64,000 nt of DNA from Thermoplasmata archaeon (GTDB lineage: Archaea > Thermoplasmatota > Thermoplasmata > Lutacidiplasmatales > UBA184). Positions 704 through 42,062 of the stretch are shown one piece after another. The notes under the pieces were generated by a model. It was not told where the DNA came from, did no database searches, and saw nothing but the letters and a program-made list of their open reading frames with translations. The position numbers and the translations under genes were made by a program. Every line of letters begins with the position of its first letter. The first letter of the stretch is position 1. The stretch covers positions 1 to 64,000 of the forward strand of contig JAJZYH010000008.1 of the NCBI GenBank assembly GCA_021798195.1. The letters are read 5' to 3'.

Positions 704-3700
704 ATGTGGAACGGGACGTCTTGTGATGTGGCTCCCCGAGGTTCTCGGAAACAGACGGCGATTTGGGTCCTGGTCACCATCGGGATCATGGTCTTGGCGA
801 CGGGCACCGCTCTGGCCTCCGCTCCGCAGGCTTCCCCCTTTGGGACCCCGGTGGCTCTTGCAGAACCCACGCCGGCCCATGCCCCTACCTTCCCGGTGCC
901 CGGCCCCGCCTCCGGCCAGCCGAATCCCTCATCCACCCCAACCTCCGGCCCATCCCTGGGCACTTCGGGTCCACTCACGGTTCCGGGACTTGGGGGAATG
1001 CACATCCAGAGCCCTCTCATCCGAGCATCACATGTCCCGCAGTCCTGGGCCTCTCTCCGGACCCCCAGCGGTGCCTATAGCCCGCCCGGGGTGGACCCCA
1101 CCAATGCTCCGTGGGCGAACAGCTGGGGGTACTCCAATTCCTCCACGAACCAGTCCGGCCTCCACTGCGTGGGGTACGACACCGGTGTCTGGGCCCAGTA
1201 CGGGTACAATTGCGTGGGGCACGACGAACCTTCCATTGACTTCTATTCGACCCTCCCCGGCAGCGCCGGGAACGTCACATGGAACGTGACCCTCCCGGTG
1301 GACCGCAGCCCGACCCAGAACCAGTCCGATCTCTACATCGCCATCTGGTTCGGAATGACCCTCAGCGACCCCAGTGCCTGGGAGAACGCGTGCTTCCTCG
1401 AGCTCCAGTTCTACCCCGACTCCACGTGGGCGAACACCGCCCTGGACCTGAATGGCACGGTCACGAACAACTGGATCGCAGCCGCCTTCGCGTGGCAGCT
1501 GGTCCCCGGTGCCGGGGCCGGGAACCTCATCGAGAACCCATGCTTCCTCCAGCCCCTGTATTCCAATGGATACACCTCGGGGAACTCCTTCTTCAACATG
1601 CAGGGCGGGGACAAGCTGACCCTCACCTTCCAGGGATGGCCGGGGGACCCCAAAGGGGAGACCATCGCGGTGGCCGACCATACCCAGGGCACAGCTACCT
1701 CCATGGACCTCTACAACGGGTCGTGTGCCAACTACCAGGAGTGGTTCGGGTTCCGGGCCTGCGGAGGGAACTATCCGCTGGACCCCGCGTACACGTCCAA
1801 TTCCTACCAGGAAAGCATGCCCTGGTCTCCCACCACCGTCTACCCGGCGGCCTTCGCGTTCGAAGTGGGCCACGCGGGAAACCCCGCCTACCCCAACAAG
1901 GGGCTCTTCGGGGGTTGCTACCCCGGATGGGATCACCTCTACGGGACCACCTACTGCCCCACCTACAATCCTTCCTCGTGGGCCAATGACACGGCACAAC
2001 CATGGGAGATCCAGCCCCCCTACTTCTTCAACGCCCACGCGCACCAGTCCCCGGCCCAGGTGGCCTTCAACCAGGACCTGGGCGGGGAAGCCTTCTCCAA
2101 CGGTACCGCCTGGTCCAATTTCGCCTACGGCTACGACTACGGGCTCCCCAACTTCGGGTGCACCCCCAAGACGCTCACCGGTACGGAGCACTGCAGCTAT
2201 CCATGGTACAGCTACTCGTGCAGCTCCCACGCGTTCGAATTCGGGGCGACGGACTATCCGGGCGTCACCTCGGACTTCGGCAAATGGAGGCAGTTCACGG
2301 ACTCTTGGACCACCGGACCGGAGGCGGGGATCCAGGGAGGCCTGATGCCCACCAATTTCACGATCCCGGTCTGCTCGGGATCCGGGGCCAGCCTGTCGCT
2401 TGGCGTGGGTACCCCCGGCCAGGGTTCCATCTATTTCCTGTCCCACGAATACACATCCACCGCCACCGTGCGGGGACTCACTTTGGGGGAGTACTCGCTG
2501 CACGCGACCCCGTCGGCGGGCCTCTCCTTCGCCGGATGGTACTCTTCCGGCGGGGTGAAGGTGGCACAGCCGGCCTCTCCGTGGACCAGCGTCTACGTGG
2601 AGGGGAACGGCACGTTGGTGGCCAACTTCTCCAAGACGGCGCCCAAGCTCATCGACGTCTACTTCAATGACTCCGCCTCGGGGGCGGAGATCAGCCTTGT
2701 CCCGGGCTTCACCGAGGCGTTCCAGCCCCAGATCGGGGACCTTGCCAGCGGGACCATGGAGGCCTTGCCTCCCGGCATCTATTCGGTGCAGGCCATCCCC
2801 CCGGCGGGAAGCGCCACGTCCGGCTTTTTGTTCTCCAACTGGTCCATCTCCAAGGGCGGGAACATTTCGGCCCCGTACTGGGCCTTCGCCTGGCTCACCA
2901 TCGACGGGAGCACGAGCTCCGTGTCCCTCGAGGCGTACTACACGCCCAGCACGCTCACCGCCTCTCCCCTCGTCGAAGTGATCGGGGATGCCACCGCGGT
3001 GACCTTCAACGGAGTGGCCTTGACCCCCCTCTCCACCAGCACCCCTACGGTCTATGTGAACCCCTCGGGCCTTGCCGGCGCGACCATGGCCGTGGGAGGG
3101 TACACCCTCAGCATCACCCCCGCGGCCGGCTGGGTCGTCGTGGCCAGCGAGATCATCGAGGCCATGAGCATCGACACCCACTCCAACAGCATGGCGGTCT
3201 ACTTGCAGCCCACCCCCAGCGGAGCCCAGTCGGAGATCGTGGTCATCATGGCGGCTCAGGTCACCCTCGCCGATAGCCCGGCCACCGGGGGAGAGGTGGC
3301 GATGCAGTACGGTTCCTTCAATGGCCTGCTCTCCACCCTGGGGCTGTACCCTCCGGGTCTCCTTCCCTCCGGGCCGCTCCCCAGCGGGACCGTCCTGGAC
3401 CTTCCTCCCAGCACGGTGAGCTGCGCGGCGTGCACCCCCACCACCATCACCCTCGCGGGCCCCTATTCCCTGTTCGGGATCCCCAGCGCATCCACCTCCT
3501 TCTCCTCCTGGAGCGTGAGCACGGGGGCCAACATCACCGTGGCGAGTTCCGGGGCGATGTACACCACCGCCCTCATCGACAACACGGGTACGCTCACCGC
3601 CAACTACGTCTCGGCCGCGAACCACTCGGTCACCTTCTACTCCTATCCCTCCAACGGGGGAGAGGTCGACTTCAATTTCCAGACGGTGGCGAGTGGGGCT

Positions 3701-5467
3701 CCCGGCATCAACGCGACCAACGGGACGTATCTCGTCTATGCCCTCCCCGCCCCCGGGTTCAAGTGGATCGGATTCGAGCCGTGGGGCGGCGTGAGCACGG
3801 CGCCCTCCTGCTTCGACAGCTCCATCTGCAACGAGCTCAATGTCTCCGGGAACGGCTTCGTCTACGCCCTCTTCGCCCCGCTGGATGTCCGGGTGAGCTT
3901 CACCACGAACCTTCCCGGATGGGTCTCGGCCACGTTGAACGGGACCTCGCTCGCCAACGGGGGTTCCACGGAACTTCCCTTCGGGACGGCCCCCCTGGAT
4001 CTGGTCCTCCCCTCCGGCGTTCGGGCAGCGGTGGATTGGACGGCCACCGAGGGCCTCTCCCCTCAGTCGGCGTCCGCCCCCGCGACCAATCTCTCCATCG
4101 CCGGACCGGGGACCCTGTATGCGGAGGTGGGCGCCGCGGTGACCACCCCGGGGGCCACCTTGCGCGCCCTCGACGTGGGGATGAGCGTCGACCTTTCGGT
4201 GACCGCGGCCGGGTACGGAAACCTCACCTACATGTGGAACGGGCTCCCGTCCGGTTGTTCCTCGCAGGACTCCGCCAACCTCACGTGCGCTCCCACGAGC
4301 GCAGGGACCTACAACATCACCGTCACAGTGACCTCCTCCGCAGGGCCCCAGGTGACCTCCCTACCGGTGACCCTGGCCGTGGGGCTTCCCCTCTCCACCA
4401 CCGCGGTCCTTTCCGCGTCCGCTTCGGATGTGGGGATCCCCCTCCAGGTCTCCATCGTGCCCACGGGAGGTGTCGCGCCGTACGCCTACGAGGATTCCCA
4501 CGTCCCCGCCGGATGCAGCCCGGGCGCCTCGGGAAGCGTGCTCACCTGCACCGAGGCCCTCCCGGGGAGCTACTCCGGAACGGTCTCGGTGACCGACGCC
4601 GCGGGTGTCACCGTGTCGACCCCGTTCGCATTCACGGTGAATCCCCTCCCCCAGGTGGCGACCTTCACCGCCAGCCCGGCCGCGCTGCTTGTGAACGGGA
4701 CCACATTCCTCAACGTGAGCGAAACCGGAGGGACGGCCCCCCTCCAGTATAGCTACGCGGGCCTCCCGCCGGGTTGCGCCTCGGTAGACGCGGCGACCTT
4801 GACCTGCCGTCCGGACACCACGGGAACGTTCGGCGTCACGGCCTCGGTACGCGACGCGGACAACGTGACCGCCCAGGCCTTCATCGTCCTCTCCGTGGGC
4901 GTCGCCCTGTCCAGCCCGCACCCCGTCGCCGTGACCGCCTTCACGGCTTCCCCCAACGCCATCGATCTGGGTGGGACCGTGGACCTCAACGTCACCGTGA
5001 CGGGAGGGACCGCTCCGTTCACCTACAACTACTCCGGGCTCCCCAACGGCTGTTCCCCGGCGGACTCCCCCACCCTGACATGCACTCCCACCGCCACAGG
5101 GGATTACACCGTGATGGTCACCGTGCGGGATGCCCAGAACCAGACGGCCTCTGCCTTCGTCTCCTTCACCGTGGCCTCAACCCCCACCCCCGCCTCGAGC
5201 CAGGGACCCGCGGCGTCCTCCTCAGGACTCCTGGCCCTCGTCGCCCTGATCCTTGCGGTCCTGGCTCTGGTGGCCGCCGGGGTGGCGCTCGCCGCGCGCC
5301 GCCGGGAACGGCGACAGAACGAGCCCCCCCTTCCGTGGGCCACGCAGAACCTGAGGCAGGGATCCCCGTCCCCGGGACCGACCCCCCCGGGCCAAGCCTC
5401 CGCGACGGAGCCGGGAAGCCCGGGCTCGCCCGGGCAGACCACACCCGAAGGCCAGTCCCCTCCCTAG
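704..5467 (+). CDS. Giant secreted, membrane-anchored surface protein with Ig/PKD-like repeats
   Basis: A 1,587-residue cell-surface protein. I start it at ATG 704 because a T-rich element sits 26 nt upstream and because the N-terminus then forms a classic signal peptide: basic residues, then a hydrophobic core at about 19-38 ending ALASA. The first ~550 mature residues are rich in Trp, Tyr, Asn and Cys and match no family I know. From ~590 to ~1,130 come beta modules of the pattern G-Y-S-L-x-A-x-P-x-x-G-x-x-F-x-G-W, like bacterial surface repeats. Four Ig/PKD-like repeats (about 1,165-1,490) each carry a GLPxGC...LTC cysteine pair. A C-terminal membrane helix (~1,507-1,530) precedes a cytoplasmic RRRERR stop-transfer and a Pro/Gly/Gln tail. 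Many N-x-S/T sequons suggest N-glycosylation. Ligand and role are unknown. Confidence 0.85.
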   Translation: MWNGTSCDVAPRGSRKQTAIWVLVTIGIMVLATGTALASAPQASPFGTPVALAEPTPAHAPTFPVPGPASGQPNPSSTPTSGPSLGTSGPLTVPGLGGMHIQSPLIRASHVPQSWASLRTPSGAYSPPGVDPTNAPWANSWGYSNSSTNQSGLHCVGYDTGVWAQYGYNCVGHDEPSIDFYSTLPGSAGNVTWNVTLPVDRSPTQNQSDLYIAIWFGMTLSDPSAWENACFLELQFYPDSTWANTALDLNGTVTNNWIAAAFAWQLVPGAGAGNLIENPCFLQPLYSNGYTSGNSFFNMQGGDKLTLTFQGWPGDPKGETIAVADHTQGTATSMDLYNGSCANYQEWFGFRACGGNYPLDPAYTSNSYQESMPWSPTTVYPAAFAFEVGHAGNPAYPNKGLFGGCYPGWDHLYGTTYCPTYNPSSWANDTAQPWEIQPPYFFNAHAHQSPAQVAFNQDLGGEAFSNGTAWSNFAYGYDYGLPNFGCTPKTLTGTEHCSYPWYSYSCSSHAFEFGATDYPGVTSDFGKWRQFTDSWTTGPEAGIQGGLMPTNFTIPVCSGSGASLSLGVGTPGQGSIYFLSHEYTSTATVRGLTLGEYSLHATPSAGLSFAGWYSSGGVKVAQPASPWTSVYVEGNGTLVANFSKTAPKLIDVYFNDSASGAEISLVPGFTEAFQPQIGDLASGTMEALPPGIYSVQAIPPAGSATSGFLFSNWSISKGGNISAPYWAFAWLTIDGSTSSVSLEAYYTPSTLTASPLVEVIGDATAVTFNGVALTPLSTSTPTVYVNPSGLAGATMAVGGYTLSITPAAGWVVVASEIIEAMSIDTHSNSMAVYLQPTPSGAQSEIVVIMAAQVTLADSPATGGEVAMQYGSFNGLLSTLGLYPPGLLPSGPLPSGTVLDLPPSTVSCAACTPTTITLAGPYSLFGIPSASTSFSSWSVSTGANITVASSGAMYTTALIDNTGTLTANYVSAANHSVTFYSYPSNGGEVDFNFQTVASGAPGINATNGTYLVYALPAPGFKWIGFEPWGGVSTAPSCFDSSICNELNVSGNGFVYALFAPLDVRVSFTTNLPGWVSATLNGTSLANGGSTELPFGTAPLDLVLPSGVRAAVDWTATEGLSPQSASAPATNLSIAGPGTLYAEVGAAVTTPGATLRALDVGMSVDLSVTAAGYGNLTYMWNGLPSGCSSQDSANLTCAPTSAGTYNITVTVTSSAGPQVTSLPVTLAVGLPLSTTAVLSASASDVGIPLQVSIVPTGGVAPYAYEDSHVPAGCSPGASGSVLTCTEALPGSYSGTVSVTDAAGVTVSTPFAFTVNPLPQVATFTASPAALLVNGTTFLNVSETGGTAPLQYSYAGLPPGCASVDAATLTCRPDTTGTFGVTASVRDADNVTAQAFIVLSVGVALSSPHPVAVTAFTASPNAIDLGGTVDLNVTVTGGTAPFTYNYSGLPNGCSPADSPTLTCTPTATGDYTVMVTVRDAQNQTASAFVSFTVASTPTPASSQGPAASSSGLLALVALILAVLALVAAGVALAARRRERRQNEPPLPWATQNLRQGSPSPGPTPPGQASATEPGSPGSPGQTTPEGQSPP

Positions 5468-35681: not shown

Positions 35682-36110
35682 TTACTTTCCGAGCAGCCCG
35701 TCTCCCCGGGACGCCGCGCGGCGACGGGCCATGCGGCGTTCGTGGAGCTCCCGGGAGGCGTCCCGCGAGGCCCGGCGCCTCTCTCCATGGTCCAGGGCGA
35801 GCTCGGTGAGCCCACGTTCCACCGCCTTGGAGAGCGCGTCGGCCACAGAATTGGCCCAACCATCCTCCACCAGCTCTTCCAGCTCGGCAGCGAGGGAAGC
35901 CGGGAGATCCGGGCGTGCCTCCGCGCCGGTGGTGGGAAGGGACCCCGACCGGGGCACCGTGGCCTCGGGGTCCGCCTCCCGGAGCAATTGGCGGACAGCT
36001 TCGGACCGATTGGGGAGCCCGCGGGACCGCACGATGCGGTCCAGACGGTGAGTCGCCTCGTGGTCCAGACGGACTCCGAGGAAGACTCCGGCCCCCTTCG
36101 GTGGCTGCAC
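35682..36110 (-). CDS. Ribbon-helix-helix DNA-binding protein
   Basis: A 142-residue protein. Residues ~8-45 (VFLGVRLDHEATHRLDRIV then SRSEAVRQLL-type: RGLPNRSEAVRQLLREAD) form a classical RHH/CopG domain. A second, weaker beta-helix-helix (about 72-108, LPASLAAELEELVEDGWAN then SVADALSKAVERGL) may be a second RHH half. The C-terminus is strongly basic. It begins at GTG 36110, 28 nt below a TATTAAATA box, so it is leaderless. Two GTTAAAC sites fall between that box and the start codon, which strongly suggests autorepression. Confidence 0.82.
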   Translation of the reverse strand: MQPPKGAGVFLGVRLDHEATHRLDRIVRSRGLPNRSEAVRQLLREADPEATVPRSGSLPTTGAEARPDLPASLAAELEELVEDGWANSVADALSKAVERGLTELALDHGERRRASRDASRELHERRMARRRAASRGDGLLGK

Positions 36111-36162: not shown

Positions 36163-36236
36163 ACCGCGGCATCTTCGCGTGGATCGCACGGCTCCGCGGC
36201 CGGGCGGGGTGCCCGATGACCTCGGGGAGCGAGAGC

Positions 36237-36241
36237 TTTTA
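36237..36241 (+). promoter_or_regulatory. TATA-like TTTTA element for aIF5A
   Basis: CTTTTATG in GC-rich sequence. It predicts a transcription start near 36266, giving the aIF5A message a leader of about 13 nt. Confidence 0.4.
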
Positions 36242-36278
36242 TGCCGCTCCCCATCGGGACAGCCGAAGGGAACGAACC

Positions 36279-36665
36279 ATGGCTTGGACGCAGGCAGAGG
36301 TCCGGGAATTGCGTGAGGGGCGCTACATGCTGGTGGACAACGAGCCGTGCAAGATCCTCTCGATCCAGACGTCGAAACCGGGAAAGCACGGAGAGGCGAA
36401 GGCCCGCATCGACGTGATGGGCATCTTCGATGGGAGCAAGCGCTCCGTGGTGTTCCCGGTGAAGCACAAGGTGCAGGTCCCCATCATCAACAAGCGGTCC
36501 GCCCAGGTCCTCTCCTTGAGCGACACCGAGGTCCAGTTGATGGACATGGAGAGCTACGAGACCTTCTCCCTGCCCTTGGAACCGGGGCAGCGGGAGGAAC
36601 TCTCCCCCGGGTCCGAAGTGGCGTACATGTCCGCCATGGGGAAGCGGAAGATCCAACGCGCGTAG
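36279..36665 (+). CDS. Translation factor aIF5A
   Basis: A 128-residue factor that rescues stalled ribosomes, notably at polyproline. The hypusination loop is intact: [13 protein letters not shown], with the modified lysine at position 36. Two beta domains follow, the C-terminal one OB-like ([16 protein letters not shown]). Deoxyhypusine synthase is not in this window. It diverges from the RHH operon and is followed by 158 bp of spacer before the giant helical protein. Confidence 0.94.
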
Positions 36666-36823
36666 GCCCGGGCGGGCCCCCGAAGGGAGCCCGTTCTCAC
36701 GGTAGACGCCGCCGGTATTCCCCACATCTTATATGAGGGGGGCCATATGCAATCGCACGTCCCGGCGTCCCGTGCGCGGGGAGGTCCAACCTCGGAGGGT
36801 AGTCTACGGCGGCAGGAGGCGGG

Positions 36824-39800
36824 CTGAGTAGCGCTCGGCTCAAGCAGGTTGCCCAAAAGGCCGAGGAACTGAAGCGGAGGAAAGCGGCGGGGGAAGAGGC
36901 CCGGCGCCTCGCCATGGACTCCGTGGAGCTGGCCCGGGGGTTAGGTGTGACCCCACCGGACCTCGAGGCACGGGAGAACGCCATCCGGGAAGCGATCCGG
37001 AAGCTCTCCTGGGAGGAGGTGGTCACCCTTTCCGATGCGCTCCGCAGGTCCACGGAGGAGGAGATCCAGAAATCGCTCACAGAACGGGGCGAACGGGCCC
37101 TCCTTCGGGCCCAGGAGCTCCACAAGCTCGGGGTCCTCCCCGACGGGCAGTCTCCCCTCTCTTCCCGTGGGTGGGAGACCCCGCTCAAGGAAGCGCGCTT
37201 CTCCGAGGCCCATGCCACCCTCACCGAGGCCGAAGCCTTCCTCCAGAAGGCCCAGGACGGATTCCTCGGAGACCTTCAGCGAAGGGTCCTCGCATTGGCC
37301 CAGTGGTCCGGCGACGGGGGAGAGGACCTTGCCTCACTCCATGGGTTCCCCGCCGCCGAGAAACTGTTCCAGGAGGGAAGGTTTTCGGACGGGCTCGCGG
37401 CTCTGGAAGCGGAACTTCCTCACCGCCTCCCCAAGGCCCAGAAACGTCTCGAGGATTCCGTTCGGCGCTTGAGCGCGCTGGTCCCGCTGGCCAAATCGTG
37501 GTCCATCGAGGTGGACGCTGCGGAAGGCCGTCTGGGGCAGGTCTCGTCCCACCGCACGCTGGACCTCCCGACCTACGTGGGGTCGCTGGACCAGGAAGCC
37601 TCCCACCTCGAGCAGCGGATCCGGGAGAAGACGGAATCCCAGCTCGCGGAACTGCGCCAGGTACTCAGGGTCCTGTCCGAAGGGGGGGTCGACGTCAAAG
37701 AGCCCCTCGAGAAGCTGGAACACGTGGCGAACCAATCCTCCGACACGCCCGTCACCGAGCTCCCGGGCCTCGTGCAGGAAGCCCAGGAGAGCGTGGAAGC
37801 CCTGGTGGTGAGCGTTGTGGCCGGGTACATCGACGAAGTGCGGCCCCGATTCGCCGAGGCCCGACAGCTCCGCCGGGATGCGCAACCGGCCATCGACGCG
37901 ATGAACGAAGCGCGTGACTTCCTGCGGCAGCGGAAATTCCTCCAGGCCATCGCCTCGGCCCAACGGTCGCTGGAGCTCGCCTCGGAACTCCTCGCGGATG
38001 TGGAGGCGGCCCACGCCGAGATCCAAGAATTCCGGGAGATCCTCAGGCGCCTCAACACCGGCGGCTTCTCCACTACGCCCTATGAGGCGATGGCCACCGA
38101 GGCGGAGGCGATGCTCTCCCGGGGGGACGTGGAGCGGATGCGCACCAGCCTCCAGGAGGGCCTTCGGGGGTTGGGCCGCGAATCCCTGCCGTTCTTCCAA
38201 CGGCAGTTCGAGGTGCAGGATCGATTGCGCGCCCGGTTCCGGGAACGGGGGTGGACCCCTCCCGAGGACCTTCCCCGGAAACTGGACGGGGCGAAGCAGC
38301 TCTTCCAGGACGGCCGCTTCGCGGAGACCGCCGAAGCCCTGGCCGAAATCAAGGCGCTCACCAAGGCCTTCGTGGCCCCCCACATCAGCCAGCGGCTGGA
38401 GGAGATGGGCCGAGCGCTCGACGAGATCCCCGACCCCCAGGCCGTGGGGACCGTCCGAGGGCTCCTCGCGGACACCGACGTGAGCCTCCGGGTACGGGAC
38501 GACGCCGCGCTGTCGCTGGAAGCGCTGGACCGCGCCGAGAAGGAACTCTCCACCGTGTTCCTCGCCCGTTCCCAGGCGGTGATCCGCGAACTCGAGGAGG
38601 AACGGACCGCACTCGCCTCCATGGCCGTGGACACCTCCGAGGTCCAGCGGGAGATCGCCCAGGTGCGCGAGATCTTCGACGTGGGGGATTTCTTCAAGGC
38701 CTCCCGGGCCAGCCAGGAATTGAAGACGCGCCTGGAGCAACAGCAGCTGGTCCGGGCCGAGGAGGCGGTCTCCCGGGCCAAGCTCGCGGTTGTCGAGGCC
38801 GGCAAGATGGGACTGGAACCTCTCGGTGTCCGCACTGCCCTCCAGGGAGCCCAGGAACTGGTCCGCCAGGGGCGGTACCTGCCGGCCTTCCAGGCCGCGG
38901 AGAAGGCCCGCACGGAGGCAGCGAACATCTGCTCCACCGCCCAGAGGGTCCTGGACGTGATCACCAAGGTGGCCGAATTGATGGCGAATCTCCGCAAGCA
39001 GGGGGTTCCCGTGGAGGACCTGCGGGAATTCGCCCCCCGGATCGCCGAGGCACGGGAGGCGTACCAGTCCCTGAGGTTCCAGGAGGCGGAGACCCTTGCC
39101 TCACGCATCCGGAACGATGTGGAGGCGATCGTCGCCCGGAGGGATGGGCGCGCGGTGCTCACGTCCCTGCGGACCCTCTTCGAGGAAGCGGAACGCATCG
39201 GGGCCGCCCCGGAAGATTGGCACCCTTCCCTCGCCCGGGAGGAGGAGGCCCTCTCCGGCCCCCAACCCGTGGAGGCGTTCCACCGGCTCCAGGAACTCCA
39301 GGTCCAGGGCCTCTCCCGGATTCGCCCGCTCCTGGAAGGCCAGCTCCGGACGCTGGAATCCGACCTGAGGTCCGCCCGTGCGGTGGGCATGGACACGCAG
39401 GCCGTGGAGGAAGCGCTCCGGGAAGCCCGACGCCGCCTGGAGAGCCCCATCCCCCTGGGGGCGGCCCAGATCCTCGACCAGACGCGCCGCGACTTCTTCC
39501 AGAGCCGCACGTTCGTGGAACAGGCGCTCAAGGGGCTCAAGTCGGCCCGGGACGCATTGGTCCAGGCGGAGCTCGTTCGGGTGGGGACGGCCGACCTCCG
39601 CAAACGTCTCGACGAGGTGGAATCCCGGATGGCCGCCAAGGACTACGCCTCGGCCATCGAGAGCGCCCAGGCGATCCAGCGCGAGGTGGAGGGGCGGGTC
39701 CGGGACCAGGTGAACGAGACGCTGGCCAAGTTCCAGAACCTCGTCACCAAATCCAAGATGGAGGGGATGCTCACCACGGTCGCGGAGAATTTCCTCGTCC

Positions 39801-41227
39801 AGGCCCGCCGGCTCCTCGAGGAGGGCAAGCCCATCGAGGCCCTCCAGTTTGCCAGCCGCAGCGAATCCGAGCTGGAGAAGGTGGAACTCCAGCATTCCCT
39901 CGCCCAGAACTCCCTCCTGACGCTCCAGGAGAAGCTCGAGACCGCCGAGCGGGAACGACTCCATGCCCCGGGAGCTCGCGAGGATCTGGAGAAGGCAAGG
40001 GACCTCTTTGCCCGCGGGGATTACACCAACGTCCTGGATCTGGTCTTCACCGCCACCGACCGCCTGAGCTCCGTGGCCGAGCTCCGGAAACGGGCCGGAG
40101 AGGTGGTGACGAGGACGCAGGAGGGCCTCGGGGCCCAATCGGGATTCGGGGTGGACCTGGGACCGTTCCTTGCGGACAATGCCCGGGCGAAGGAACTCCT
40201 CGACCAGGGGAAGTATGCGGAGGCCCGCATCCTCTCCCTCTCGGCGGCGGAGGGGGCGCGCAACGCCGTGGAATCTTCGATCACCCGGTCCCTGGATGAG
40301 GTGCGGGACCTGGGCGCAGCGCTCCCGACGCTTTCCCCCGAGGCGCATACCAAGTTCCTCCCCATCCTGGGACGGGCCGAGCAGGCGTTCAAGTCGCGCG
40401 ACTGGACCGCGTCGCTCCAGGCGATCAAGGAGGCGCGGGAAATCGCGGAGGGGACCCTCCGCGTGGTCATCGAGGAGCAGAGGGCGAAGCTCCGGACCCT
40501 GCGCTCCGCCCTCCCCTCCCCGCCCCCCACGGAACCGGGGGGGGATCTCGACACCCGCCTGGACGAGGCGGTGCAGGGGCACCGATTCCGGGAGGCCCAG
40601 GACCTCCTGGCCTCGGCTCTCGCGGAGATCGAGACCCTGCGCATACAGGCCCTCGGGGCGGACGTTCAACGGCTGGAACGGAAGGTCCTGCAGGGGGAGA
40701 AGCTGGGCGTGGAAACCACGCCCGTCATGGAGCTCTTTAGCGAAGCCAAGATGAACTTGGAGTCTCGGAACCTCGAGGTCGTCCCCGGGCAGATCGCGAA
40801 GGCCACCGACCTGCTCAACGGCCTGGTGGCCCCCCGTCTCGAGGACAAGCTCCGGGAACTGGAGAGCGAGCTCGCCTTTGCGAAGGAGGGCTTGAACGTG
40901 GCCGTGGGCCCGGTGGAAGCCCTCGCACTGGAGGTGGAGCGGGTCCGCGCCACGGGAGACCTCACCGGGGCTGCGGCAAAGCTCCTCGAGGCCGAGGAAG
41001 AGCTCAACCAGCGGAAGGCCCGGCACCGGGAATTCACCAACCTCACCTACCTCATCGACGCCGCACTGGCCCAGGCCAACGAACGGAAGCTCACCACGAC
41101 GAAGGCGCGTGAGCTATTGTCCGAGGCGCTCAAGCTGAGGGCCACCGATTACGGGAAGGCCATCGAGCTGGCGCGGAGCGCACTGGCCCAGGTTCAGGAG
41201 GCACTTCGGGCGCCTCCCACGAGTTGA
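36824..41227 (+). CDS. Giant all-helical repeat protein of unknown function
   Basis: A cytosolic protein of ~1,467 residues, almost entirely charged alpha-helix, with one cysteine and no membrane segment. A recurring motif ends one helix and opens the next: KLFQEGRFSDGLAAL, QLFQDGRFAETAEAL, ELVRQGRYLPAFQAA, RLLEEGKPIEALQFA, DLFARGDYTNVLDLV and ELLDQGKYAEARILS. This looks like a degenerate TPR or spectrin-like repeat of about 60-190 residues. The first ATG is 36914, but the 30 codons before it read as the same kind of helix (RLKQVAQKAEELKRRKAAGEE) with no stop, so I extend to CTG 36824, four bases after GGAGG. A structural, cytoskeletal or scaffold role is possible. No known family recognised. 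Confidence 0.8.
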   Translation: MSSARLKQVAQKAEELKRRKAAGEEARRLAMDSVELARGLGVTPPDLEARENAIREAIRKLSWEEVVTLSDALRRSTEEEIQKSLTERGERALLRAQELHKLGVLPDGQSPLSSRGWETPLKEARFSEAHATLTEAEAFLQKAQDGFLGDLQRRVLALAQWSGDGGEDLASLHGFPAAEKLFQEGRFSDGLAALEAELPHRLPKAQKRLEDSVRRLSALVPLAKSWSIEVDAAEGRLGQVSSHRTLDLPTYVGSLDQEASHLEQRIREKTESQLAELRQVLRVLSEGGVDVKEPLEKLEHVANQSSDTPVTELPGLVQEAQESVEALVVSVVAGYIDEVRPRFAEARQLRRDAQPAIDAMNEARDFLRQRKFLQAIASAQRSLELASELLADVEAAHAEIQEFREILRRLNTGGFSTTPYEAMATEAEAMLSRGDVERMRTSLQEGLRGLGRESLPFFQRQFEVQDRLRARFRERGWTPPEDLPRKLDGAKQLFQDGRFAETAEALAEIKALTKAFVAPHISQRLEEMGRALDEIPDPQAVGTVRGLLADTDVSLRVRDDAALSLEALDRAEKELSTVFLARSQAVIRELEEERTALASMAVDTSEVQREIAQVREIFDVGDFFKASRASQELKTRLEQQQLVRAEEAVSRAKLAVVEAGKMGLEPLGVRTALQGAQELVRQGRYLPAFQAAEKARTEAANICSTAQRVLDVITKVAELMANLRKQGVPVEDLREFAPRIAEAREAYQSLRFQEAETLASRIRNDVEAIVARRDGRAVLTSLRTLFEEAERIGAAPEDWHPSLAREEEALSGPQPVEAFHRLQELQVQGLSRIRPLLEGQLRTLESDLRSARAVGMDTQAVEEALREARRRLESPIPLGAAQILDQTRRDFFQSRTFVEQALKGLKSARDALVQAELVRVGTADLRKRLDEVESRMAAKDYASAIESAQAIQREVEGRVRDQVNETLAKFQNLVTKSKMEGMLTTVAENFLVQARRLLEEGKPIEALQFASRSESELEKVELQHSLAQNSLLTLQEKLETAERERLHAPGAREDLEKARDLFARGDYTNVLDLVFTATDRLSSVAELRKRAGEVVTRTQEGLGAQSGFGVDLGPFLADNARAKELLDQGKYAEARILSLSAAEGARNAVESSITRSLDEVRDLGAALPTLSPEAHTKFLPILGRAEQAFKSRDWTASLQAIKEAREIAEGTLRVVIEEQRAKLRTLRSALPSPPPTEPGGDLDTRLDEAVQGHRFREAQDLLASALAEIETLRIQALGADVQRLERKVLQGEKLGVETTPVMELFSEAKMNLESRNLEVVPGQIAKATDLLNGLVAPRLEDKLRELESELAFAKEGLNVAVGPVEALALEVERVRATGDLTGAAAKLLEAEEELNQRKARHREFTNLTYLIDAALAQANERKLTTTKARELLSEALKLRATDYGKAIELARSALAQVQEALRAPPTS

Positions 41228-41392: not shown

Positions 41393-41851
41393 CTACGCGG
41401 AACCGCCCAAGGACTCTTCGCTCAGGCCGGATGTGGGCATCGCCCCCGGACGGGGCGGCGTCAGAGGCCAGCGATCGTACTCCACCACATGTTTCAAACC
41501 GGCCTTGCGGAGGATCGAGGAGATCGACTCGGTCAGGCCCACCACCTCCTGGCAGCGGATGGGCTTCGTCACGTAGAACTCCAACCGACGGTCCTCCCGG
41601 ATCGGGAAGACCAACCGAAGACCCGAAGGGTCCTGCCGGTTGTAGCCGACCGGCTTGCGATCGGCGCGGAGGTCCCGAAGGTTCTCCTCGAGGATGACCT
41701 CCGGTAGGATCGGGTCCGGCTCCTTGGGGAGGGGCCGGTTCTGGTCCACCAGCCTCCGGTGGATCTCCGGATAGACCTTTGCGAGGTCCTTGTAGGTCTT
41801 CCGTCCATCCAGGATGAGATGCCCGCTCCGGGCCTTCACAGGGGGGGTCAT
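41393..41851 (-). CDS. Conserved-looking archaeal protein of unknown function
   Basis: A 152-residue soluble protein with a mixed alpha/beta pattern. A Lys-rich opening (SGHLILDGRKTYKDLAKVYP) is followed by YPEIHRRLVDQN, VILEENLRDLRADR, a beta stretch GLRLVFPIREDRRLEFYVTK and a helix EVVGLTESISSILRKAG, then a Pro/Gly/Ser-rich tail. ATG 41851 is chosen because a CTTATAC box lies 28 nt upstream. It stands alone between the giant repeat gene (convergent) and the tRNA. I do not recognise the family; nucleic-acid binding is conceivable. Confidence 0.65.
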   Translation of the reverse strand: MTPPVKARSGHLILDGRKTYKDLAKVYPEIHRRLVDQNRPLPKEPDPILPEVILEENLRDLRADRKPVGYNRQDPSGLRLVFPIREDRRLEFYVTKPIRCQEVVGLTESISSILRKAGLKHVVEYDRWPLTPPRPGAMPTSGLSEESLGGSA

Positions 41852-41875
41852 CGGCCTCTTGGAACGCAGGACGGC

Positions 41876-41882
41876 GTATAAG
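41876..41882 (-). promoter_or_regulatory. TATA box CTTATAC
   Basis: Minus-strand CTTATAC, centred 28 nt upstream of ATG 41851, giving a leaderless message. Confidence 0.6.
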
Positions 41883-41986
41883 GGGGTTGCGCGATCCCGG
41901 GTCACCCCTCAGGGGTCCCGGGCGGGAACTCCGGGGACTGTCCATGGAAGGTTAAATACGCGGAGGAATCCAGAACGTCACACGCT

Positions 41987-42062
41987 GCTCCCGTAGTCTA
42001 GTGGTCAAGGATAGAGGCCTCTCGAGCCTTTGACGCGGGTTCAAATCCCGCCGGGAGCACCA
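41987..42062 (+). tRNA. tRNA-Glu (anticodon CUC), CCA encoded
   Basis: The cloverleaf folds completely. The acceptor stem GCTCCCG (41987-41993) pairs with CGGGAGC (42052-42058). The anticodon stem GAGGC/GCCTT encloses the loop CTCTCGA with anticodon CUC. The T arm is GCGGG TTCAAAT CCCGC. The discriminator A is followed by a genomically encoded CCA. No intron. A TAAATA box about 31 nt upstream (41953-41958) fits a tRNA promoter. Confidence 0.95.

Follow-up and report, generated by a model that had tools for sequence, protein, structure and literature searches.

A giant helical-repeat protein widespread in the Thermoplasmata: a predicted spectrin-like rod and the putative loss of an ancestral RING module

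Background

Operons that encode Ub, E1 and E2 have been described from prokaryotes, and RING E3-like proteins are added to them only in Caldiarchaeum and the Asgard archaea (PMC6043591); the srfp RING E3 of Caldiarchaeum is a small, operon-encoded protein (PMC5654768). Among long helical proteins, the rod of spectrin is built of units of ~106 aa, and TPR proteins are built of 34-aa units with equal helices.

The stretch of DNA analysed here (the window; 64,000 nucleotides of contig JAJZYH010000008.1) derives from a Thermoplasmata archaeon of a Lutacidiplasmatales-like family (f1). It encodes a giant protein that an earlier note, made from the sequence alone, had described as a soluble, cysteine-poor helical-repeat protein of ~1,470 aa, and had likened to spectrin, plakin or TPR scaffolds and proposed as a candidate cytoskeletal or cell-shape protein in a lineage whose relatives often lack cell walls. 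The observation itself was confirmed, and its interpretation was partly supported. No description of this protein family was found in the literature collection searched. The features of the locus are summarized in Table 1.

Table 1. Features of the giant gene, its product and its neighbours in the window
Feature	Coordinates	Strand	Evidence or remarks
aIF5A/eIF5A, archaeal translation factor, upstream neighbour	36216..36665	+	PF21485 1.1e-14; synteny
Shine-Dalgarno-like AGGAGG	36814..36819	+	4 nt before CTG 36824; sequence reading
Giant helical-repeat protein	36824..41227 (incl. stop)	+	1,467 aa from CTG (1,437 from ATG 36914)
N-terminal capping helix, residues 3-39, class-wide QL-KQLEEKAKEA motif	36830..36940	+	AlphaFold2; alignments
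~23 tandem ~63-aa repeats, residues 44-1464	36953..41215	+	AlphaFold2 pLDDT 88-89; repeat statistics
SESELEKVELQ, residues 1013-1023 (consensus SExELERVELQ)	39860..39892	+	invariant columns A1, A3; A2 consensus matches
Downstream convergent conserved gene, function not known	41393..41905	-	synteny
tRNA-Glu(CTC)	41987..42062	+	

Gene and protein properties

The open frame of the giant gene begins at ATG 36914, ends with the stop at 41227 and encodes 1,437 aa; a longer form of 1,467 aa starts at a CTG codon upstream. CTG is rare as a start codon; nevertheless, CTG 36824 is probably the right start, because the 30 extra N-terminal residues of this form (RLKQVAQKAEELKRRK) can be aligned to the N-terminus of the homologues, which is conserved. 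Full-length relatives in the same family (29-41% identity) ruled out a GC-rich shadow ORF.

The protein has a single Cys among 1,437 residues, and hydrophobic segments are absent (the highest Kyte-Doolittle mean over 19 residues is 1.06), in agreement with a cysteine-poor, soluble protein; a signal peptide or membrane segment was not seen. No relative was found in Pfam, NCBIfam or PDB (best E-values 0.068, 0.24 and 0.26, respectively), as expected from the earlier claim of no recognised family. The Pfam scan also gave no match to a known enzyme or to the terminal ATPase heads of SMC/Rad50 proteins, and helical repeats extend from end to end.

Repeat architecture and predicted fold

Nearly the whole length of the protein is made up of ~23 tandem repeats of ~63 aa (62.7 +/- 3.8 aa), each comprising a helix of ~15 residues and one of ~40 residues with a G/K-x-(F/Y)-xxA turn between them. 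The recurrent turn motif that had been noticed earlier is real and periodic, with peaks of profile self-similarity at offsets 62, 126, 188 and 313, and the ~63-aa unit spanning nearly the whole protein had been missed. The repeats are visible at the protein level only; no tandem repeats were found in the DNA. Ungapped profile autocorrelation was marginal, with offsets 62 and 313 just above a heptad-block null, and therefore a gapped leave-one-out HMM was used; 19 of the 23 repeats outscored all 300 of their own shuffles, and over 437 instances the repeat HMM scored a mean of 13.5 bits, compared to 4.3 bits for the identical repeats reversed. The strongest class-wide conserved segment, SESELEKVELQ, lies within repeat 16, on its long helix.

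AlphaFold2 predicted an all-helical protein with strict alternation of ~15- and ~40-residue helices over all 1,467 residues (pLDDT 88-89), joined by loops of about 3-6 residues; with a pTM of 0.41-0.45, the model does not fix the course of the rod as a whole. Foldseek searches against PDB with both halves of the protein gave no significant match. Judged by the helix pattern, the protein may have a compact, spectrin-like rod architecture for which there is no solved counterpart.

Because short and long helices alternate with loops of 3-6 residues, we infer a spectrin-like rod rather than a TPR-type stack; the geometry is argued from the helix and loop lengths of the predicted models. As in the spectrin/alpha-actinin rod (PF00435), the long helix is predicted to run into the next unit and the shorter one to fold back, and the helix pattern and loops fit three-helix units through which one long helix continues; Foldseek gave no significant match to spectrin. 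In contrast to spectrin, the repeat measures ~63 aa and its two helices ~15 and ~40 residues, actin-binding CH and PH domains are missing, and the Pfam scan gave no PF00435 match at E<=1. The earlier analogy to spectrin appears apt for the predicted topology, although no homology is detectable. A likeness to TPR/Sel1-type alpha-solenoids did not hold: the turn resembles the TPR helix A-B turn, and weak TPR_2/TPR_12 matches, all below cut-off, were obtained for some orthologues, but no TPR match was found by Pfam in the window protein, and side-by-side stacking of the TPR type (34 aa, equal helices) would be impossible for a unit of 63 aa whose helices differ so much in length and whose loops have only a few residues.

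Distribution and the C-terminal RING module

The giant protein is full-length in 32 of the 37 f1 genomes, apparently once per genome, and a version of it is encoded in most of the class Thermoplasmata (nearly all sampled genomes outside two families) despite having no family model. To our knowledge, conserved single-copy archaeal proteins of ~1,500 residues without a family model are rare. A search of genome contigs with a single giant sequence as query yielded no loci, whereas 54 giant-gene loci were detected with the alignment as query. The f1 profile and the class-wide orthologue profile aligned over 1,329 columns (E 3.6e-94), up to a point before the CARDB/RING region.

In most orthologues outside f1, the rod is followed by a CARDB-like domain and a Prok-RING_1 (PF14446) zinc finger at the C-terminus (E-values in orthologues, 7.4e-7 for CARDB and, at best, 2.7e-15 for Prok-RING_1). 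The RING ligands of the orthologues are invariant (CxxC, CxC, H, C, CxxC), and the Prok-RING_1 of the Aciduliprofundum-like orthologue exceeds the Pfam cut-off. These orthologues thus end in a RING-type finger like the srfp RING E3s of Caldiarchaeum; unlike srfp, the finger is carried on a ~1,500-aa rod that is unlinked to the Ub operon. The module is absent from the window protein, which has no RING finger, and no RING was found in any of the nine f1 genomes examined. No Prok-RING_1 over cut-off was found in the window's own genome, where sub-threshold partial matches were rejected, and the convergent gene and tRNA-Glu(CTC) leave no space immediately downstream in which a detached RING ORF could lie. 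On this sequence comparison, the CARDB/RING module is apparently ancestral and was lost in f1.

Possible association with a ubiquitin-like system

No E2 was found in the same nine f1 genomes that lack the RING, and the order-mates of f1 (f2 and f3) have E1, UbL, E2 and JAMM together with a RING-bearing giant; the E1-UbL-E2-JAMM operon retained in these order-mates is missing from f1. Class-wide, E2 and RING are associated (36/3/23/18; Fisher p 2.7e-4, phylogeny not corrected for). The coupling is imperfect, since several lineages keep the RING without a detectable E2, as in the Aciduliprofundum-like f15 and in f6, and a few genomes have an E2 without the RING. In a further family (f9), a UbL-E2 fusion gene divergently adjoins the giant gene in seven of the eight genomes with the fusion (gaps of ~150-210 bp); this E2 lacks the canonical catalytic Cys and so may serve there for binding and not for catalysis. 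Many further RING proteins are encoded in these genomes and might act with the E2 instead. Altogether, the link of the giant rod to ubiquitin is suggestive, not proven.

Proposed role and alternatives

We consider it fairly probable that the giant protein is a cytosolic, non-enzymatic helical rod scaffold, ancestrally RING-tipped (E3-like) and now RING-less in f1. Its ~23 repeats would chain end to end, each short helix turning back along a long one and each long helix being common to adjacent three-helix bundles in spectrin fashion, and would form an extended rod of several tens of nm (about 85 nm if fully straight, by geometric estimate). In the ancestral form, we infer, the binding of clients or partners would have fallen to the rod, and the recruitment of the E2 of the archaeal E1-UbL-E2-JAMM system to the RING; an E3-like scaffold is the probable ancestral state because most relatives outside f1 end in the CARDB-like and RING domains. 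In f1 the Ub-like operon was lost together with the RING module, and the full rod was retained; this argues for a scaffolding role independent of RING and shows that E3 activity is not the core function.

Tentatively, these ancient, class-wide mini-spectrin-like rods could be the trans-encoded RING E3 scaffold of the E1-UbL-E2-JAMM system, of which the window's lineage possibly shed the ubiquitin apparatus and the RING tip, keeping the rod for a second job. The RING-bearing rod could fill the place of the missing Thermoplasmata E3, and the paired loss in f1 and the f9 UbL-E2 beside the giant gene make the idea testable with two purified proteins.

A cytoskeletal or cell-shape element, i.e. a spectrin-like cortex or cell-girdling stabiliser, is unlikely. 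The great length and the spectrin-like topology would suit such a role, and weak, non-significant Foldseek matches were to vinculin, the alpha-actinin rod and alpha-catenin; the top matches (vinculin/alpha-catenin and dynein-tail bundles; E at least 0.37, probability at most 0.21) reflect generic helix-bundle likeness only. However, the protein has no membrane segment and no actin-, tubulin- or membrane-binding domain recognised by Pfam, and an ancestral RING and CARDB-like module would be unusual for this role. The idea of a cell-shape protein in a wall-less lineage is not borne out and is weakened because the giant gene is absent from the wall-less Thermoplasmatales (f19, which we take to be the family of T. 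acidophilum and T. volcanium). The CARDB-like and RING domains of many orthologues point away from a cytoskeleton and towards a scaffold linked to a ubiquitin-like system, a link that was not visible to the earlier note because the window copy has lost the module.

Just as improbable is a quality-control or translation platform close to the ribosome to which nascent or damaged proteins attach, with the eIF5A adjacency representing co-expression and the ancestral RING having marked clients. eIF5A adjoins the giant gene throughout f1, and ribosomal-protein-like genes flank the E1-UbL-E2-JAMM operon in several genomes (partly inferred from translations), but the adjacency is not seen beyond f1, and housekeeping-gene neighbours are often incidental.

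With an identity of 16-24% beyond f1, and with repeats that can match out of register, the giants might share a generic helical or coiled-coil resemblance and not constitute one orthologous family. This is very unlikely, since the profile alignment is collinear end to end, lengths are similar, and the families have in common the N-terminal motif and the SExELERxELQ segment; the window protein shows the QL-KQLEEKAKEA helix, the ~23 repeats and this segment alike. Moreover, the convergent downstream gene, for which a Pfam scan gave no match, is found at the same position in most of f1 and in the RING-bearing order-mate L023.

A tether, surface-associated rod or phage tape-measure-like protein, as the length, the helicity and the top Foldseek matches of the C-terminal half in BFVD (viral; including tail tape-measure and minor tail proteins) might suggest, is exceedingly improbable given a best E of 0.044 (not significant), the apparent lack of a signal peptide and of membrane segments, a conserved chromosomal position beside eIF5A, and a location outside any prophage region with no phage genes.

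A JAMM-ThiF pair in the window's own genome (C48) was rejected as a Ub operon (24-28% identity; no UbL or E2 beside it) and presumably represents a sulfur-transfer or SAMP-type pair.

Gene and start codon

The giant open reading frame pointed out in the earlier note was confirmed as a genuine gene. Its longest conventional start is ATG 36914, which gives 1,437 aa; the codon at which the earlier note had placed the start is a CTG located 4 nt 3' of AGGAGG. The protein probably comprises 1,467 aa, since the 30 additional residues encoded between the CTG and the ATG resemble the conserved N-terminus of its homologues. It contains a single cysteine and no hydrophobic stretch, and no sequence relatives were found in Pfam, NCBIfam, or PDB.

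Coordinates of the giant gene and of related features
Feature	Locus	Position
Giant gene	Window	36824-41227 (+)
CopG-type regulator gene	Window	35682-36110 (-)
3,420-aa repeat-rod relative (order-mate genomes G039 and G037)	L049; L050	5776-16047; 6330-16592
FWPFRRPP-type C-terminus	L008-L013, L018, L042, L043, L047
E1-UbL-E2-JAMM compact operon, many Thermoplasmata	L145-L157, L159, L164	e.g. L150: 3898-6156
UbL-E2 fusion with degenerate active site, divergently adjacent to giant gene (family f9)	L028; L029; L160; L161	5411-6094; 6330-7004; 5842-6501; 4222-4899
Adjoining JAMM and ThiF-like genes (own genome G000, contig C48)	L165	~3014-4557

Repeats and predicted fold

The turn motif described previously does recur, with a period of ~63 residues. 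Ungapped profile self-similarity peaks at offsets of 62, 126, 188 and 313, only marginally above the null; when scored with a leave-one-out profile built from the other repeats, 19 of the 23 repeats exceeded all 300 shuffles, and the mean score was 13.5 bits for real repeats versus 4.3 for reversals (437 repeat instances, 19 homologues).

AlphaFold2 predictions were made for two overlapping segments, residues 1-730 (42 aligned sequences, pLDDT 89.2, pTM 0.45) and residues 660-1467 (45 aligned sequences, pLDDT 88.2, pTM 0.41). The prediction is free of strands and repeats one unit 23 times, i.e. a helix of ~13-16 residues, a three-residue turn, a helix of ~35-42 residues and a loop of about 4-6 residues, with irregular units e.g. 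around residues 115-240. Because the predicted helices are antiparallel, unequal and short-looped, each unit would be displaced axially by 25 residues x 0.15 nm, or about 3.5-4 nm, which would make the chain a rod of overlapping three-helix bundles with one long helix in common, a small-scale spectrin topology, rather than a TPR-type solenoid. For both halves, Foldseek searches of PDB gave no significant match (vinculin, E 0.37, and a designed nanocage, E 0.51, came closest), nor did a search of BFVD with the C-terminal half. The proposed scaffold role is supported, and the comparison with spectrin fits the topology suggested by the predicted helices, but does not extend to family membership, in view of unit length, profile and Foldseek results.

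Distribution

The giant gene is present in 32 of 37 genomes of the window's family (f1), mostly in a single full-length copy that lies between eIF5A and a conserved convergent gene. Five genomes of one genus (G009, G025, G032, G034 and G036; 93-97% complete) lack it, and their congeners have it. In several genera, eIF5A is immediately preceded by a conserved, divergently oriented gene for a ribbon-helix-helix (CopG-type) regulator. The close relatives with named MAG records are Thermoplasmata, Candidatus Lutacidiplasma silvani among them; the Lutacidiplasma order has ~69% GC and includes aerobic members from soil (PMC9287336).

Over 1,329 columns, the f1 profile aligns collinearly (E 3.6e-94) with a profile of orthologues found in the class outside f1, and the N-terminal QL-KQLEEKAKEA helix and a SExELERxELQ segment are common to both. 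A match was obtained in 112 of 150 class genomes. The listed genomes without the gene belong mostly to two families, f19, which we take to be that of Thermoplasma acidophilum and T. volcanium, and f8, presumably containing Methanoplasma termitum; mcrA was not found in f19 and is present in f8. The absence from f19 does not favor the suggested cell-shape role in wall-less cells. Further relatives are a longer repeat-rod protein in two order-mate genomes (Table) and, in other classes of the phylum, proteins of 2,780-3,198 aa that match the C-terminal model region with the RING.

C-terminal tip and its loss

In most families other than f1, the orthologues continue past the rod for another ~150-180 residues, which include a CARDB-like beta domain (7.4e-7, L035) and a RING-type zinc finger (Prok-RING_1, 2.7e-15 for the copy in an Aciduliprofundum-like genome), the ligands of which are invariant in 15 aligned sequences; many close with a short KK-(V/L)AxKx tail. 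Families f22 and f30 combine a RING-less rod with a stand-alone RING protein encoded elsewhere. The f1 proteins stop at the last repeat, or a subset, in several genera, closes instead with FWPFRRPP, a motif missing from the window's copy; no RING (E<=1e-6) was detected in nine f1 genomes. A simple split-off of the RING from the giant gene is excluded, because a convergent gene and a tRNA lie immediately downstream.

Most likely, the giant protein is a rod scaffold whose ancestor would have been a RING-tipped, E3-like platform, and the window's lineage would have lost the RING secondarily and kept the rod.

Ubiquitin-like system

E2 (UQ_con) was detected in 39 of 80 class genomes scanned and in none of nine f1 genomes; order-mates in families f2 and f3 have E1, UbL, E2 and JAMM as well as a RING-tipped giant. 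The operon order is E1 (ThiF), UbL (PDPEGG end), E2 (HPN, active-site Cys) and JAMM, apparently without a linked RING; no description of it for the class Thermoplasmata was found in the literature searched. In family f9, the E2 part of a UbL-E2 fusion lacks the canonical Cys; by coordinate comparison, seven of the eight genomes with the fusion have it divergently beside the giant gene, and the eighth has the giant only as fragments.

E2 and RING tend to be found in the same genomes of the class (36/3/23/18; Fisher p 2.7e-4, a count that ignores phylogeny), with families f15 and f6 as clear exceptions (RING, no E2), and the link between the giant rod and the ubiquitin system is therefore suggestive. 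Prokaryotic operons with Ub, E1, E2 and JAMM homologues have been described, of which only those of Caldiarchaeum and Asgard archaea also include RING E3-like proteins (PMC6043591), and a small archaeal RING protein is able to act as E3 (PMC5654768); a trans-encoded RING on the giant rod would fill the E3 gap of the Thermoplasmata operons. The window's own genome carries a JAMM/ThiF-like pair, with no E2 or UbL beside it, that is distant from the E2-operon versions.
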